Shown: piece by piece, positions 29,983 to 36,309 of the stretch
Position numbering within the stretch: position 1 is the first letter of the stretch
Layout of the letters: each line of letters starts with the position of its first letter
The notes under the pieces: model-generated
Databases searched by the model: none
Seen by the model: the letters and a program-made list of their open reading frames with translations, nothing else
What the model was told of the DNA's origin: nothing
Assembly (NCBI RefSeq): GCF_014304815.1
Contig: NZ_CP047958.1
Coordinates: 620,001 to 684,000 of the forward strand
Length of the DNA: 64,000 nucleotides
Reading direction: 5' to 3'
Source: Synechococcus sp. MIT S9220
GTDB lineage: Bacteria > Cyanobacteriota > Cyanobacteriia > PCC-6307 > Cyanobiaceae
Translations under genes and position numbers: made by a program

Positions 29983-31071
29983 ATGGGCTGGTCTCTGCGT
30001 CGGTTTCCGCTCACCAAGGCGGTTCCTCTGGCGATCAGCCGAGGCACCACATCAGCTGTGGAACGGCTTGAACTGTGCATTAGCCATAACGGGATCACCG
30101 GTCGGGGTGAAACCGGTGGTTTAGACACCGGTCACCGCTCCTATGGATTGGACGGCATCGAGGCTGAACTCCAGGGTGCGCTGCCCGCTCTCAACAGGCT
30201 TGATCCTGCCGATCGAAGCGTTGTTGATCCGCTGCTGAGCAGCCTCTCCCCACCGGCGCGTTGTGCTGTGGATCTCGTGCTCTTGGATTGGTGGGGTCAG
30301 TTCTTGCAGCAACCGATCTGGCGATTGTTCGGCCTGGATGGACGCTGCGCTGTGGCCACCAGCGTCACCCTGGGCCTGGCTTCGGTGGAGGGTGTGCAGC
30401 AGCGGCTCCATCGCTGGTGGACGCAACTGCCCGCCACCCGTATCAAGCTCAAGCTGGGCAGTCCTGAAGGCCTCGACCATGACAAGGCACTGCTGCGGGC
30501 GGTGGCGTCGATGCTTCAAACCCGCAGACAGCAGACCGGCGAGGCCCATGAGCTTCAGGTCGATGCCAATGGTGGCTGGACCGTGCAGCAAGCCAGGGAG
30601 ATGCAAGCAGAGCTCGTGGCTGCTGATGTAGTTCTGCTGGAGCAGCCTGTCGCTGCAAGCCTCGATCCTCAGGAGGATCTGCAGGGTTTTGCGGCGTTGC
30701 GAGAGCACTGCAGCATGCCGCTTGTTGCCGACGAAAGCTGCTGGGATCTGAAGGATCTGCTGCGCTTGGCCCCTCATGTGGATGGGGTCAATCTCAAATT
30801 GCTCAAAACCGGTGGATTAACGGAGGCCTTGTTGATGGCCAGAGTCGCTGAGCGATTGAACCTGGATCTGATGGTGGGCTGTTACTCAGACAGCACACTG
30901 CTCAATGGAGCGGCATGCCAGCTGTTGCCGTTGATCCGCTGGCCAGACCTCGACAGTCATCTGAATCTTGTGGACGATCCTTATCTCGGGCTTCCGCTTG
31001 ATCAAGACAGACTGTCTCCCCCGATTTCCGCTGGGTTGGGAATCAGCAGCAAAGCGGTGGGTTCAGGCTGA
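29983..31071 (+). CDS. enolase-superfamily epimerase (Ala-Glu epimerase or DgcA-like)
   Basis: The protein has 362 residues from ATG 29983. The muconate-lactonising-enzyme-type barrel has the acid/base Lys in IKLKLG (Lys155/157), metal ligands Asp194 (VDANGGW), Glu220 (LLEQPV) and Asp250 (ADESCW), and the opposite Lys in NLKLLKTGG (272/275). This is the set expected of L-Ala-D/L-Glu epimerases used in murein peptide recycling. DgcA, reported to racemise N-acetyl-D-glutamate, is an enolase-type enzyme of the same sort. A DUF1611 gene, the family of its partner DgcN, lies 1 kb downstream on the same strand, which raises the second possibility. Confidence 0.85.
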   Translation: MGWSLRRFPLTKAVPLAISRGTTSAVERLELCISHNGITGRGETGGLDTGHRSYGLDGIEAELQGALPALNRLDPADRSVVDPLLSSLSPPARCAVDLVLLDWWGQFLQQPIWRLFGLDGRCAVATSVTLGLASVEGVQQRLHRWWTQLPATRIKLKLGSPEGLDHDKALLRAVASMLQTRRQQTGEAHELQVDANGGWTVQQAREMQAELVAADVVLLEQPVAASLDPQEDLQGFAALREHCSMPLVADESCWDLKDLLRLAPHVDGVNLKLLKTGGLTEALLMARVAERLNLDLMVGCYSDSTLLNGAACQLLPLIRWPDLDSHLNLVDDPYLGLPLDQDRLSPPISAGLGISSKAVGSG

Positions 31072-31209
31072 TTGGCTGGCCTCTTGTTCCGCTAGCTCAC
31101 GCAGATAACGACGTCTCTGGGGCGACTCGTAGCCAGTGATTTGATAGGCCTTGGCAGGTTTGCCAGACCTTCTCCACTCCCGATGGGGAGCGATCTCTCT
31201 TCGATTCAT
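31063..31209 (-). CDS. 48-residue basic hypothetical protein
   Basis: A short frame from ATG 31209: it begins MNRREIAPHREWRRSGK and ends RRRYLRELAEQEASQSA. It is strongly basic with a YQITGYESPQ centre and no membrane segment. Its stop overlaps the last bases of the epimerase gene on the other strand (convergent). The regular codon use and the sharp end against the neighbouring stop suggest a real small gene, possibly nucleic-acid or ribosome binding; this is inference. Confidence 0.45.
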   Translation of the reverse strand: MNRREIAPHREWRRSGKPAKAYQITGYESPQRRRYLRELAEQEASQSA

Positions 31210-32095
31210 TTGAATTCGACTTATCGGTTCTCGCGCAGTGGACCCTTCTGGGCTCTTCGGCGTTTAATGATTATTGCATGGTTTTCAAAATCATGCATCG
31301 AAGACTGTTCTGCGCAGCCTGATGGACCGCCGATTTAGCTCGAGGTTTCCTGGAAGTTGTGGAGCATTTTCCAGCTCAACTTCGGTCCACAATTAGCTGT
31401 TCTATCTCCTTGATCTGCATGCGCAGTGCCATGAAGGTTGGTCCCTGCATGCTGTTCAGGGGATCGTCTGCAGCATCGTCGTTTCGCTTTTCAGTCGAGG
31501 TTTAATTGCCGCAATCTCAAATGGATCACCACGATGAAATTGTGTACTTCCGAAAGCACTGGCTGATTCACTCGTGAAGTGTGCTTCAGGCTTCAAAAAA
31601 GCTGTTCAGAAGCCAGCGAAATGCAGCAGTGTCTCCAATGTGGCCAGGCCAAGCAGGAATGTGGCGCCGAAAAAACTTGCCTCTTTCAGTCCTTTGGACA
31701 TGAGTCGTGCCCCCGGAAAAACGCAGCCTTCTGAAGAGAACATTAATCAGCACAGCTGCTCGAGATTGAGCAAAACACAAAAATATTTTTTGCTTATCAA
31801 TGACAATCAAGTTTCTACAGTGTTCTGTGTCATTGGTCTCCAAAAGCCTGCTTTTGCGGCTGCTAGCGACACAAAAAATCGTGACTTTTCATTGAGTTGA
31901 TGATTTTTTGTTGCGTGGTCGCGTTGTGCGTCAGGTCAGTGATCGGAGTTCCTTGCCGTTGATTCACGCTTCAGGGTCGGTCTTCGCTTGCTGGGCGCGC
32001 ATGCTGGTGGGCGTTGCTAGATCCATGGTCACTGCTGTGGCCGCGATCACTTGAGTTTTGAATCCATCACTCAGTGCCCTTCAGGCTTTGCTGCC
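31210..32095. other. long gap between epimerase and DUF1611 genes, with one micro-ORF
   Basis: About 0.9 kb without a normal-size gene. Apart from a 31-codon minus-strand frame (31606-31701) I see no supported coding region; longer frames on both strands (for example 31574-31900 plus) read as low-complexity noise. The stretch is more AT-rich than its flanks. It would hold the promoter of the DUF1611 gene. Confidence 0.4.
31606..31701 (-). CDS. 31-residue single-helix membrane micro-protein (candidate)
   Basis: The frame from ATG 31701 reads MSKGLKEASFFGATFLLGLA, followed by TLETLLHFAGF and a stop. A short basic head precedes one continuous hydrophobic helix, the layout of small photosystem, b6f or NDH subunits and other thylakoid micro-proteins. 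I cannot assign it to any known subunit. It stands alone in an otherwise empty 0.9 kb gap. Confidence 0.35.
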   Translation of the reverse strand: MSKGLKEASFFGATFLLGLATLETLLHFAGF

Positions 32096-33166
32096 ATGCC
32101 TCTGGTGCTGATGCAGCACGGGGGGTTGGCGTCGCTCACTGGCAAGACCGGATTGGCGATGCTTCGCCATCGACCTGGTCCGATCGTGGCTGTGATTGAT
32201 CCTGAGCATGCTGGAGAGCGGCTGGACCATGTCACAGGCATTGCCAGGCCAGTGCCCTTGGTGCGCGATCTGGCGGAGGCGCTCCCCTACGGACCAACGG
32301 TTGCTGTCGTTGGTCTGGCGCCATCAGGAGGGGGTTTGCCCGACGCTATGCGGACCGATGTGTTGGCGGCACTCGATGCCGGCCTGTCTATCGCCAGTGG
32401 TCTGCACAGCTATCTGAACGATGACCAGGAGCTGCAAGCAGCGTTGCAACCCGGTTGCTGGATCTGGGACCTGCGCCGTGAGCCGGCCGGACTCGGCGTG
32501 GGCAAAGCTCGCGCTGCGGCGCTCCCCTGTCAGCGCATTTTGGCCGTGGGAACGGACATGGCTGTCGGCAAGATGAGCGCCTGTTTGGCTGTGCACGAGG
32601 CCGCCACTCGGGCAGGAGTTCCCTCCGCTTTCGTGGGGACCGGTCAGGCAGGGATCCTGATCAGTGGCCAGGGGGTCCCTCTGGATGCGGTTCGGGTTGA
32701 TTTCGCTGCTGGTGCTGTGGAAGCCGCGGTGCTGTCAGCGGCGAAAACTCTGCCGCCCAAGGGTCTGCTGCTCGTGGAGGGTCAGGGATCGCTCTGCCAT
32801 CCCGGTTCCACGGCCACCCTGCCCTTATTGAGGGGAAGTCAGCCAACGGCGCTGATGATGGTGCATCGCGCTCAGCAGTCCACGATTGATCGGCTGCCGG
32901 ACATCCCGCTGCCTTCTCTGGAGGAGCTGGTGGTGATCTGCGAAGCGCTAGCAGCGATCGGCCGCCCTGCCGGCAGCCCTGCCGCTCCCAGGGTGCGGGC
33001 ATTGGCACTGAACACAGCCCGGCTGGATGATCAGCAGGCGTTGAAGGTTGTCGAGCAGGTGGGCGAGCGTCTCGGGATTGTTTGCAGGGATCCCATCCGG
33101 CATGGAGCCGATGATCTGCTTCAGGCATTGATGAGCCCTGAAACAGAACACCTGTTCAAAGGTTGA
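32096..33166 (+). CDS. DUF1611 family protein, DgcN-like (D-glutamate N-acetyltransferase candidate)
   Basis: The protein has 356 residues from ATG 32096; a TTG at 32051 would add 15. N-terminal MPLVLMQHGGLASLTGKTGL and the C-terminal P-loop-like GTDMAVGKMS (about 152-161) are characteristic of DUF1611, with LLVEGQGSLCHPGS and ALMMVHRA further on. The DUF1611 protein DgcN of marine bacteria is reported to N-acetylate D-glutamate before racemisation by DgcA. An enolase-type epimerase lies upstream. The pairing supports, but does not prove, that function here. The gene is convergent with tRNA-His. Confidence 0.8.
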   Translation: MPLVLMQHGGLASLTGKTGLAMLRHRPGPIVAVIDPEHAGERLDHVTGIARPVPLVRDLAEALPYGPTVAVVGLAPSGGGLPDAMRTDVLAALDAGLSIASGLHSYLNDDQELQAALQPGCWIWDLRREPAGLGVGKARAAALPCQRILAVGTDMAVGKMSACLAVHEAATRAGVPSAFVGTGQAGILISGQGVPLDAVRVDFAAGAVEAAVLSAAKTLPPKGLLLVEGQGSLCHPGSTATLPLLRGSQPTALMMVHRAQQSTIDRLPDIPLPSLEELVVICEALAAIGRPAGSPAAPRVRALALNTARLDDQQALKVVEQVGERLGIVCRDPIRHGADDLLQALMSPETEHLFKG

Positions 33167-33286: not shown

Positions 33287-33715
33287 ATGTCTTCGCCTCG
33301 TTGGCGCTGGCCTTCAGCAACGGTGGCTGCAGCTGTGCTGGTGGTGGCAGGAAGCTGTGTTGCTCTGTTCGTGACCAATCCCACCAGGGACGATTACCAG
33401 GACTTTGCCGGGGAAACATTGGTGACTCTGGCCACCAAGGAGGTCTGTGAGCGTCAGACCTTGCCGATGGTGCTGCGGCTTTGGATCAGTGATTGTCCTC
33501 GCTTGATCGCCGATCAAGAGCCGGCGCTGGCCTTGCTGGCCGACCAGTTCACCCGTCGCTGGAACCTCGGGCTGGCCAGTGTGTATGTCACGACTGTGGG
33601 GGGTCAGAACCTCTTGCCCGCCTTGCGATTGCCGCGCTACTCCGTGACCAGCCTCGGACTTGCAGGCCAGTTTTGGGTGCTCAACGCTCATTCGGATGCC
33701 GGCAAGCTCGAATGA
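33287..33715 (+). CDS. DUF4359-type anchored protein
   Basis: The protein has 142 residues. An N-terminal helix (ATVAAAVLVVAGSCVALFVTN) is followed by NPTRDDYQDFAGETLVTLAT, with paired Cys (EVCERQT and SDCPRLI), then a Gln/Arg-rich middle and a strand-rich end (NLLPALRLPRYSVTSLGLAG). The pattern fits the cyanobacterial DUF4359 family, probably on the periplasmic or lumenal face. Its stop overlaps the start of the amidohydrolase by four bases (ATGA), so they share a transcript. Function unknown. Confidence 0.75.
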   Translation: MSSPRWRWPSATVAAAVLVVAGSCVALFVTNPTRDDYQDFAGETLVTLATKEVCERQTLPMVLRLWISDCPRLIADQEPALALLADQFTRRWNLGLASVYVTTVGGQNLLPALRLPRYSVTSLGLAGQFWVLNAHSDAGKLE

Positions 33716-34959
33716 GCACAGCAGGGTTTTCGTTGGCATCCGGTGAGCTAAGAGCACGTTGTCCGCGCTCTTTGCTCGATCTGGGCTCTGATCCGTCGCC
33801 AACGGCTGATGTGGATGGGCTGATTCCCGTGGTCCTGTCCTGGTCTGGCAGCAGGATCCAGTCGGTGAAAGCCACATCGGAGGCCACGGGGCTGGTGCTA
33901 CCCCGACTGGTGGAACCCCATGCCCATCTGGATAAGGCGTTCTCCTGGAACGAGTACCCCAATCCAGCTGGGACTTATTCAGGAGCCTTGGCGGCCAACT
34001 TCAGGGAACACGAGACCCGCTCGGCCGAGCGGGTTCAGCAGCGTGCGGAACGTGCTTTGCAACTGGCTTGGGACCATGGCCTGAGGGCCGTGCGCAGTCA
34101 CATCGACAGCCTCGGGCCTGGTGCGGACTGCAGCTGGGAGGTGTTGTCGGCTCTGAGAGCTCGGTGGCGTGAGCGCATCGAGCTGCAACTTGTTGCGCTG
34201 GTGCCAGTGGAGCACTGGTCGACGCCAGAGGGTGAACACCTGGCGGCTGAGGTGGCCCAGGCCCAGGGCGTGATCGGCGGTGTTCTTGCTCCTCCCTGTC
34301 GAGGTCGAGCGACGCGCCAGGCCCTGCGCCGACTGCTGGAGCTTGCCGATCAACATGGCTGCCCTGTGGATCTGCATATCGATGAAGCGGCCTCCCATCC
34401 GGCGGCTGGGGTGCGACAGCTGCTGCGTGTGCTCGAGAGCATGAGCCTGTCTGTTCCTGTCACTTGCAGCCATGCCAGCAGCCTGTCGCTGCTGTCAGCG
34501 GGTTCATTGCAGCGGTTAGCTACCCGTATGGCCCGTCAGAACCTGCAGGTGGTGGCGTTGCCGCTCACCAATGGCTGGTTGCTGGGTCATCGAGACAACG
34601 AGACGCCTTTGCGCCGGCCGTTGGCACCGATTCGGCAGCTGCAGCGCGCAGGTGTTTCCGTCGCTGTGGGTGGTGACAACGTTCAAGATCCCTGGTTCCC
34701 AGGAGGGCGGCTCGATCCTCTGGCTCTGATCGCCATGTGTCTCCCCCTGGCCCAACTTGCCCCCTGGGATGACCATGGGATGAAGCCGTTCGGCACCGAT
34801 GCGGCTCGGCTGATGGGCCTTGCCTGGGACGGGTGCCTGCGGGCCGGAGCACCGGCGGATCTGATTCATCTGCCCGAGGCTGGCTGGCCTGAGTTGCTGG
34901 CGATGGCTTGTCCACGCCGGGTTCTTGCCGGTGGACATTGGGTGCAGGATTGGTCGTAA
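33712..34959 (+). CDS. cytosine-deaminase-like amidohydrolase
   Basis: A 415-residue metal-dependent hydrolase from ATG 33712. The HxH motif is in VEPHAHLDKAFSW (His70, His72), with further ligands in DLHIDEAA, TCSHASSLS and the Asp in VGGDNVQDPWFPGG. This spacing is that of CodA-type enzymes acting on cyclic amides or deaminating heterocycles. The substrate cannot be read. The gene overlaps DUF4359 and is followed after 18 bases by a FAD oxidase, suggesting a small catabolic unit. Confidence 0.85.
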   Translation: MSTAGFSLASGELRARCPRSLLDLGSDPSPTADVDGLIPVVLSWSGSRIQSVKATSEATGLVLPRLVEPHAHLDKAFSWNEYPNPAGTYSGALAANFREHETRSAERVQQRAERALQLAWDHGLRAVRSHIDSLGPGADCSWEVLSALRARWRERIELQLVALVPVEHWSTPEGEHLAAEVAQAQGVIGGVLAPPCRGRATRQALRRLLELADQHGCPVDLHIDEAASHPAAGVRQLLRVLESMSLSVPVTCSHASSLSLLSAGSLQRLATRMARQNLQVVALPLTNGWLLGHRDNETPLRRPLAPIRQLQRAGVSVAVGGDNVQDPWFPGGRLDPLALIAMCLPLAQLAPWDDHGMKPFGTDAARLMGLAWDGCLRAGAPADLIHLPEAGWPELLAMACPRRVLAGGHWVQDWS

Positions 34960-34977
34960 CGCCTTTCAGACCGACCA

Positions 34978-36309
34978 ATGCTTCCTGATGCCCTGCGAAC
35001 TGAGCTGGCAGCAGTCCCTGGCCTCAGGTTGTTGTCGCAGCCGGAGGAACTGGAACGGTTGTCTCGTGATGCCTACGACTACTCGCCGGTGCTGTCGCAG
35101 CGGTTGGCTCACTGCCGTGCAGAGCTTGTGGTGAGGCCGGACAGCGTGGAGGCGGTTGTTCGCGTGGCGGCAGCCTGCCGGCGTCATGCCGTACCTCTGA
35201 CCCTGCGTGGATCAGGCACGGGCAATTACGGCCAGTCCGTGCCGCTGGAATCTGGGGTGGTGATGGTGATGACCCAGCTCAGGGCCGTGCGCTCCATTGA
35301 TCAGGTCAGCGGCGTTGCCGAGGTTGAGTGCGGATGCCTGCTGAAAGATCTCAACCGGGAGCTGGCCGGTTTTGGCCGGCAGTTACGTCTGATGCCAAGC
35401 ACCTGGCGCAGCGCCACGATCGGTGGATTCATTGCCGGTGGTTCCGGTGGAATCGGCTCCGTGCGCTGGGGCTTTCTTCGCGATCCGGGGCACCTGCTCG
35501 GACTGGAAGTGGTAACCATGGAGCAGGAGCCGCGGGTCCTTCAGCTCGATGCCAGCGATGCCGAGGCGTTGAACCATGCCTACGGCACCAATGGCATCAT
35601 CACGGCACTGCGGTTGGCCACGGCACTGCATGTTGATTGGCAGGAAGTGGTTGTGGATTGTCCCGACTGGGCGACGGCAGTGGAGCTGGCAAGACGTTGC
35701 AGTTCAGCAGCGATTGACCTGCATCTCTGCACCGTTCTTGAGGCAGCGGTGGTTGAGTTGCTGCCGAAGTGGGATCTGCCTCAGCGCCGTTCTGATCGCT
35801 TATTGCTGCTGGTGGCTCCCGATGCGGTGAGCACGGTTCAGCGGCTGGCGGCAGATATGGGGGCTGTTCTGACCCATCTCGGGGCGGAGTCCGACCGCCA
35901 AGGCAATGGTCTGCGAGAGCTGAGCTGGAATCACACGACGCTGCACCTGCGCCAGCGCGATCCTGACTGGACCTACCTACAGATGCTGCTGCCCCAACCG
36001 GAGATCGACTGTTTGAGCACACTCAAGCAGGCCTGGGGTGATGATCTGCTCTGGCATCTGGAGGCTGTCAGGCAGCAGGGCGTTCAGCGGCTTGCATCAC
36101 TTCCACTGGTGCGCTGGCGCGGCGTTGAAGCACTGGAGCGATTGATGCAGGAGTGTCGAGATCTTGGCGCACTGATCTTCAATCCGCATGTGCTCACCGT
36201 GGAAGGTGGTGGCCTTGGTGTGGTGGATGGGGATCAGGTGGCCACCAAGCACCGTTACGACCCAGCCGGACTGCTCAATCCGGGAAAACTTGGGGGGTTC
36301 AGCAGTTGA
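34978..36309 (+). CDS. GlcD-like FAD-binding oxidase
   Basis: A 443-residue PCMH-type flavoprotein: VVRPDSVEAVVRVAAACRRH, then LTLRGSGTGNYGQSVPLESG for the FAD pyrophosphate, PSTWRSATIGGFIAGGSGGI, and a C-terminal FAD-linked oxidase domain ending NPHVLTVEGGGLG. Family members oxidise 2-hydroxy acids such as glycolate or D-lactate. It follows the amidohydrolase closely and may oxidise a product of the same pathway. Its last 11 bases overlap the pentapeptide gene on the other strand. Confidence 0.85.
   Translation: MLPDALRTELAAVPGLRLLSQPEELERLSRDAYDYSPVLSQRLAHCRAELVVRPDSVEAVVRVAAACRRHAVPLTLRGSGTGNYGQSVPLESGVVMVMTQLRAVRSIDQVSGVAEVECGCLLKDLNRELAGFGRQLRLMPSTWRSATIGGFIAGGSGGIGSVRWGFLRDPGHLLGLEVVTMEQEPRVLQLDASDAEALNHAYGTNGIITALRLATALHVDWQEVVVDCPDWATAVELARRCSSAAIDLHLCTVLEAAVVELLPKWDLPQRRSDRLLLLVAPDAVSTVQRLAADMGAVLTHLGAESDRQGNGLRELSWNHTTLHLRQRDPDWTYLQMLLPQPEIDCLSTLKQAWGDDLLWHLEAVRQQGVQRLASLPLVRWRGVEALERLMQECRDLGALIFNPHVLTVEGGGLGVVDGDQVATKHRYDPAGLLNPGKLGGFSS

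Follow-up and report, generated by a model that had tools for sequence, protein, structure and literature searches.

The window, a 64,000-nucleotide stretch of Synechococcus sp. MIT S9220 (contig NZ_CP047958.1, positions 620,001–684,000), comes from a 2.42-Mb genome in a single contig, and the best named relatives of its DUF1611 gene belong to Synechococcus sp. It encodes an enolase-superfamily racemase of 362 residues and a DUF1611 protein of 356 residues (Table 1). The genes are co-oriented and 1,024 bp apart with the racemase first, which agrees with the single strand and spacing of about 1 kb given in a first-pass annotation made from the sequence. That annotation called them a DgcA/DgcN-type pair with a possible role in D-glutamate (D-Glu) salvage. 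The two genes are almost certainly linked in function, and a divergent DgcN/DgcA-like conversion module is the best available reading of them.

Table 1. Features of the racemase–DUF1611 locus, in window coordinates
Feature	Position	Strand	Basis
Enolase-superfamily (muconate lactonizing enzyme, MLE, subgroup) racemase/epimerase, related to DgcA and dipeptide epimerases	29983..31071	+	MR_MLE_C, NCBIfam, catalytic set, AlphaFold2 (AF2) model
Small gene, 48 residues, arginine-rich, overlapping the racemase stop by 9 bp	31063..31209	-	Same frame in the window and 4/4 relatives read
Small gene, 31 residues, hydrophobic	31606..31701	-	Same frame in the window and 4/4 relatives read
DUF1611 protein (DUF1611_N and DUF1611_C P-loop), related to DgcN	32096..33166	+	PF07755/PF17396, NCBIfam, model
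GTDMAVGKMS Walker-A P-loop, residues 152-161 of the DUF1611 protein	32549..32578	+	Sequence; G152, D154, G158 and K159 conserved

The racemase matches Pfam MR_MLE_C at 97 bits. Its catalytic set (K155-x-K157, D194, E220, D250, and K272) is complete in an alignment with seven solved relatives, as the first-pass annotation had read it. The best NCBIfam model is DgcA at 155.7 bits; the L-Ala-D/L-Glu epimerase (AEE) models score 85.5 (NF041118) and 84.7 bits (NF011708), below their curated cut-offs of 500 and 343 bits. The AF2 model has a predicted local distance difference test (pLDDT) score of 95.7 and the fold of a dipeptide epimerase or racemase, with Z-scores of 44.8 to 3q45, 43.4 to 3jva, and 42.8 to 3iji. 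The N-succinyl-Arg/Lys racemase 2p88 ties with these dipeptide epimerases at 44.2, so the fold does not discriminate substrate class. An ISRG arginine, R20, which has a role in binding in AEE structures, is present in 35/35 rows of the racemase alignment (A5). Among solved and characterised relatives it is also found in DgcA and Escherichia coli YcjG and is missing in the epimerases of Enterococcus faecalis (3jva), Cytophaga hutchinsonii (3q45), Thermotoga maritima (2zad), and Bacteroides thetaiotaomicron (3iji); Bacillus subtilis AEE has an arginine one place after this position. The arginine is read as a mark of glutamate-type substrates, not an absolute one, with an exception in 3iji, which was solved with L-Ala-D-Glu although it lacks the residue.

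The DUF1611 protein contains both domains of the family (Pfam, 219 and 95 bits), bearing out the earlier assignment and its P-loop. Its start is uncertain: the frame remains open as far as a TTG codon at 32051, and in some relatives the protein begins several residues earlier. The family motifs (P-loop, TGQ, EGQ, K17, and R127) are present, and nineteen positions are shared by no fewer than 36 of the 37 aligned proteins, among which are DgcN sequences; G152, D154, G158, K159, T182–Q184, and E228–Q230 are conserved at this level. These residues, together with the fold of the C-terminal domain given below, suggest nucleotide or phosphate binding. The predicted model (pLDDT 94.5) aligns to DgcN (7xrj) with a Z-score of 37.6 and a root-mean-square deviation (rmsd) of 2.5 over 325 residues at 34% identity. 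Its match to 2obn, the Anabaena DUF1611 protein Ava_3511, has a Z-score of 47.0 at 49% identity; 2obn is a solved cyanobacterial relative whose record title names no function. At Z-scores of about 13, the C-terminal P-loop domain shares the fold of BioD, Soj, and cobyrinic acid a,c-diamide synthase; individual values are 13.2 to BioD 3mle (rmsd 3.5, 176 aligned) and 13.1 to 5ihp. BioD and cobyrinic acid a,c-diamide synthase, which we take to be SIMIBI P-loop enzymes, share this fold; the window protein adds an N-terminal Rossmann-like domain and has no sequence membership with them. DgcN is reportedly described as a GNAT-type (GCN5-related N-acetyltransferase) enzyme in the abstract of the original paper. 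The model's fold matches are P-loop domains like BioD and Soj with no GNAT rows among them, an absence that proves nothing.

Co-occurrence was determined in the same 386 cyanobacterial genomes for both genes, using matches at E < 1e-50. Both genes are present in 119 genomes, only DUF1611 in 1, only the racemase in 1, and neither in 265, counts that ignore phylogeny, which tells against the interpretation below. The threshold leaves out fragments in G266 and a set of weak hits to PF07755, most of them from family f31, with E-values of about 1e-9 to 1e-3. It also leaves out weak matches to the racemase in G047, G193, G346, and G320, the last of which has stops. The DUF1611-only genome (G211) carries just another DUF1611 subfamily beside its own racemase, and G053, the genome with the racemase alone, has a listed contamination of 9%. 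The first-pass annotation had named a racemase without DUF1611 as evidence against its proposal; this objection fails, since DUF1611 is missing from 1 of 120 racemase-bearing genomes. Nor is the pair confined to this picocyanobacterium, being found across the phylum. Within the genus, 24/31 genomes have both genes, 7/31 have neither, and none is discordant; three of the seven are assemblies 70–80% complete, and four are at 99%. Both genes are kept even where they are not neighbours: 2.4 Mb of one contig separates them in G011, and five draft assemblies (G033, G045, G060, G185, and G289) have them on different contigs.

Three loci have both genes broken with neighbouring genes still matching. 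In G266 (L071, 6775–7350), a deletion runs 127 residues of the racemase (first third) into 71 residues of DUF1611 (last fifth). G405 has fragments of both genes, and almost nothing of either remains in G402, on both sides of the kept gap. Against this pattern, the racemase has one in-frame TAA beside an intact DUF1611 gene in G386, a fragmentary racemase with a TGA is found in G394 (a 58% complete assembly), and DUF1611 is split by a stop beside an intact racemase in G174. These single-gene breaks may be recent losses or sequencing errors. Because cyanobacteria keep or lose the two genes together, a shared job is very likely.

Forty loci around DUF1611 genes were taken from 35 cyanobacterial genomes. 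The racemase was found in 34, usually on the same strand and immediately before DUF1611. The remaining six loci are five of a second DUF1611 subfamily, described below, and G011. The pair genes are adjacent in most cyanobacterial loci read and adjoin in G288, the nearest relative among them. The gap that the first-pass annotation had raised as a caution does exist. Because relatives adjoin and the gap holds two small genes, it represents a locally interrupted pair of adjacent genes and gives no sign of unrelatedness. The best 80 of at least 585 DUF1611 loci from a bacterial and archaeal genome scan were also read. A racemase lies near DUF1611 in 64 of these 80, and the two always share a strand. 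It precedes DUF1611 by no more than 150 bp in 58 of these loci and follows it within that distance in 1; in the remaining 5 the genes are 292–1,183 bp apart. These loci include Bacteroidota, Planctomycetota, Verrucomicrobiota, Armatimonadota, and Pseudomonadota. The other 16 have no racemase nearby; eight of them are cyanobacterial, and for these no search of the rest of the assembly was made. Racemase and DUF1611 distance matrices agree across 55 loci (r 0.84, reached by 0/2000 permutations), an agreement that can also arise from shared species history alone. The proposal that the two genes are unrelated chance neighbours could draw on the 1-kb gap with two antisense genes that parts them in the window genome. 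It is contradicted by co-inheritance, joint decay, and adjacency across phyla; we rejected it on the co-occurrence counts and joint decay, and its probability is close to nil.

DgcN, a D-Glu N-acetyltransferase, and DgcA, an N-acetyl-D-Glu racemase, belong to a bacterial route from D-Glu to L-glutamate. The same two families are adjacent in Pseudoalteromonas sp. CF6-2, where dgcR (for the LysR regulator DgcR), dgcN, and dgcA lie in one run. Yu et al. (2023, ISME J) are said to have given the original description of DgcN and DgcA. The window DUF1611 protein is 31% identical to CF6-2 DgcN (7xrj) and 35% to a Tritonibacter protein, and shares with DgcN the two-domain fold, P-loop, TGQ and EGQ motifs, and a neighbouring enolase-superfamily racemase. 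It differs in its N-terminal stretch and in being the second gene of the pair, not the first. The window racemase has the catalytic residues, ISRG arginine, DLD motif, and DUF1611 partner of DgcA, but is only 25% identical to CF6-2 DgcA and has YSDST in the 301–305 loop where DgcA has MVGSS. The account of the D-glutamate pathway used here draws partly on PMC10845958 and PMC12363236.

The best available reading of these two proteins, with the catalytic residues, modelled folds, and joint inheritance and loss seen directly, is that they form a divergent DgcN/DgcA-like module for D-to-L conversion, with membership in the DgcN and DgcA families not proven. We consider this somewhat better than an even proposition. 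By analogy with DgcN and DgcA, the DUF1611 protein would first block the amino group of a D-glutamate-type compound by N-acylation (acetylation in DgcN). The metal-dependent racemase would then invert the alpha carbon via an enolate. In characterised relatives, the residues equivalent to K157 and K272 are the two acid/bases, those equivalent to D194, E220, and D250 bind Mg, and that equivalent to R20 holds the side-chain carboxylate; the same roles are predicted here. The N-acyl-L-glutamate would lose its acyl group or enter arginine synthesis by way of ArgJ, and both ArgJ and MurI are encoded in the window genome. The likeliest source in a photoautotroph would be D-Glu from its own or scavenged peptidoglycan. 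D-Glu as the substrate, wall recycling as the purpose, the exit through ArgJ, and the salvage of ocean D-Glu are presumed parts of this scheme.

Several findings weigh against a DgcN/DgcA-like module. The racemase score of 155.7 bits is below the curated DgcA equivalog cut-off of 400 (NF042940), for which CF6-2 DgcA scores 412, and the DUF1611 protein reaches 221.1 bits against a DgcN cut-off of 480 (NF041892; CF6-2 DgcN, 493). In the DUF1611 tree, a DgcN clade (4 rows, 100/100) excludes the window protein, which lies in a clade of its own (18 rows, 100/99). In the racemase tree, a DgcA/YcjG clade (5 rows, 100/100) leaves out the window racemase, which lies in its own DUF1611-linked clade (17 rows, 100/99). 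Both window clades also hold cyanobacterial, Bacteroidota, and other sequences. The solved relatives closest to the racemase by sequence are dipeptide epimerases, and a DxD motif (D322, D324), of the kind that binds the free amino group of a dipeptide, is invariant in A5. DgcA also carries this motif as DLD, and it therefore does not decide between DgcA and a dipeptide epimerase. The P-loop domain of the DUF1611 protein is like that of the ATP-using enzymes BioD and cobyrinic acid a,c-diamide synthase, so plain acetyl-CoA transfer is not an obvious reaction for it. An amidohydrolase is the one candidate deacylase near the pair, and its gene remains intact at loci with a broken pair. In contrast to the dgcR-dgcN-dgcA operon, the window has the racemase first and a 1-kb gap, and Pfam scans of five genes neighbouring the pair detected no transporter or LysR regulator, which matches the earlier remark that a clear regulator was lacking. 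The idea of a DgcA/DgcN-like functional pair thus has strong support from co-inheritance, joint decay, the 7xrj fold, and DgcA as the best NCBIfam model for the racemase, and the name fails for membership on cut-offs, clades, gene order, and no DgcR seen. The alignment with DgcN, DgcA, and epimerases that the first-pass annotation proposed gave a similarly divided result, with the catalytic set and motifs shared and both proteins outside the DgcN and DgcA clades. Its test by the split between DgcA and murein epimerases is not clean. E. coli YcjG (1jpd), which its PDB entry names an L-Ala-D/L-Glu epimerase, falls within the DgcA clade, so phylogeny alone cannot separate an N-acetyl-Glu racemase from a dipeptide epimerase, and the CF6-2 record names its DgcA "L-Ala-D/L-Glu epimerase DgcA".

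The racemase could instead be a murein L-Ala-D/L-Glu epimerase of wall-peptide recycling, with DUF1611 an ATP-using enzyme that ligates, caps, or activates the same dipeptide or its product. We rate this as rather unlikely. It fits the closest solved racemase relatives, which are the dipeptide epimerases 3iji (with L-Ala-D-Glu), 3jva, and 3q45, the invariance of the DxD motif, the position of YcjG, and the BioD-like DUF1611_C domain. These epimerases and YcjG have the fold, catalytic set, and DxD in common with the window racemase, but 3iji, 3jva, 3q45, and 2zad lack its ISRG arginine. Wall-peptide recycling is also favoured by the CF6-2 dgc locus, where the third gene ahead of dgcN encodes an M14 carboxypeptidase, and by an OppC-type permease gene downstream of DUF1611 in a DUF1611-only cyanobacterial locus (L096). 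Against it, E. coli, the YcjG host and one of 14 control genomes, matches S66 but gives no DUF1611 match, and no LdcA, NlpC/P60, or M14 peptidase was found among 20 neighbour genes scanned (12 from pair loci and 8 from DUF1611-only loci). The Synechococcus elongatus control genome does match DUF1611. LdcA-family S66 is present in 355/386 genomes and has no match at E ≤ 1e-8 in the pair-bearing G177 and G332. LdcA (PF02016) was set aside as a co-occurring recycling partner, being uninformative at this frequency.

A slightly less probable alternative is a module that acts on another acidic amino acid or is biosynthetic. It would make or channel N-acyl-glutamate, for example as a primer of arginine synthesis, or supply a D-compound needed for some other product. 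Broad retention in autotrophs is a better fit to such housekeeping than to use of dissolved D-Glu, ArgJ is present, and the second DUF1611 subfamily pairs with an ornithine-racemase-like enzyme. No arg gene is among the neighbours scanned, however, and the absence of the pair from 265/386 genomes makes it dispensable.

This second DUF1611 subfamily, 28–35% identical to the window's, is found in some cyanobacteria. It lies directly upstream of a pyridoxal phosphate (PLP)-dependent, fold-III racemase homologue in 13/13 loci examined (L038, L044, L046, L048, L064, L078, and L160–L166), from the 12 cyanobacterial genomes listed with such a protein and one Vibrio plasmid. All six PLP partners scanned by Pfam are Ala_racemase_N, and three compared to NCBIfam have the ornithine racemase Orr as best model at 295–395 bits, below the cut-off of 480. 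Two haloarchaeal relatives differ in their surroundings: the 11 kb read at L075 hold no racemase of either type, and an enolase-type epimerase lies near DUF1611 at L076. In the PLP pair, DUF1611 would act after racemization and not before it, because a PLP racemase needs a free amino group. A tentative proposal, which we hold at less than even confidence, is that DUF1611 is a general racemase partner, an ATP- or acyl-CoA-using, BioD-like enzyme that makes racemization one-way and was recruited alongside two or more unrelated racemase folds, among them the enolase superfamily and the PLP-dependent alanine-racemase type. Cyanobacteria carry both versions, of which the enolase one would be an ancient, widely retained D-amino-acid salvage module that has gone unrecognised.

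The two small genes in the gap are not taken as part of the pair's function. Gap DNA was matched in eight genus genomes. Five of them, the window's included, were aligned and read; the other three (G362, G318, and G221) have short matches at other places and were left out. The 1,024-bp gap is common to G391 and G405 at full length and to G402 and G406 in part. DNA matching the 48-residue gene is on contigs other than the pair's in G362 and G318. A strongly conserved stretch at about 31770–31910 lies upstream of the 31-residue gene and is kept even where the pair has decayed. Given the gap, DUF1611 may need its own promoter in the window. A promoter and terminator pattern scan of the gap found nothing above shuffles that explains it, and no known RNA was detected there up to E 1.

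Downstream of the pair, 33287–36309 (+) encodes a DUF4359 gene, a cytosine-deaminase-like amidohydrolase, and a glcD-like flavin adenine dinucleotide (FAD) oxidase. A tRNA-His gene on the opposite strand lies between the pair and the amidohydrolase and FAD-oxidase genes. The downstream genes follow the pair in 17/17 pair loci of the window's family, and no amidohydrolase–FAD oxidase pair of this kind occurs in the other cyanobacterial loci read. These two were rejected as obligate partners, as both persist beside the broken pair in G266, and the amidohydrolase does so in G402 and G405 as well. A deacylase role is possible for the amidohydrolase, and amidohydrolases near DUF1611–epimerase pairs are also found in L158, CF6-2, and, as a D-aminoacylase, Natrinema. 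The Natrinema plasmid locus (L076, 3057–6865) encodes the D-aminoacylase, DUF1611, and a dipeptide epimerase in a row, and this epimerase lacks the ISRG arginine. No recurrent pathway was found among the 20 neighbour genes scanned; MutS-domain genes recur in two loci (L131 and L151).

Parts of this picture are already in print. PMC12363236 reports dgcN in 32 class-level clades from trench genomes, and PMC3605383 mentions that cyanobacteria have epimerase (AEE) genes. Judged by title and abstract start, no paper found in the literature searched, which covered few subscription papers, describes the racemase–DUF1611 pair or the DUF1611–ornithine-racemase pair; COG3367 is mentioned in none. A hint from one genome becomes a testable module across the phylum, and there is now a strong lead to what 2obn, a structure with no assigned function, may do. 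Should D-Glu be the substrate, primary producers would take part in D-amino-acid turnover. The second DUF1611–racemase pairing suggests that the rule is general among DUF1611 proteins.

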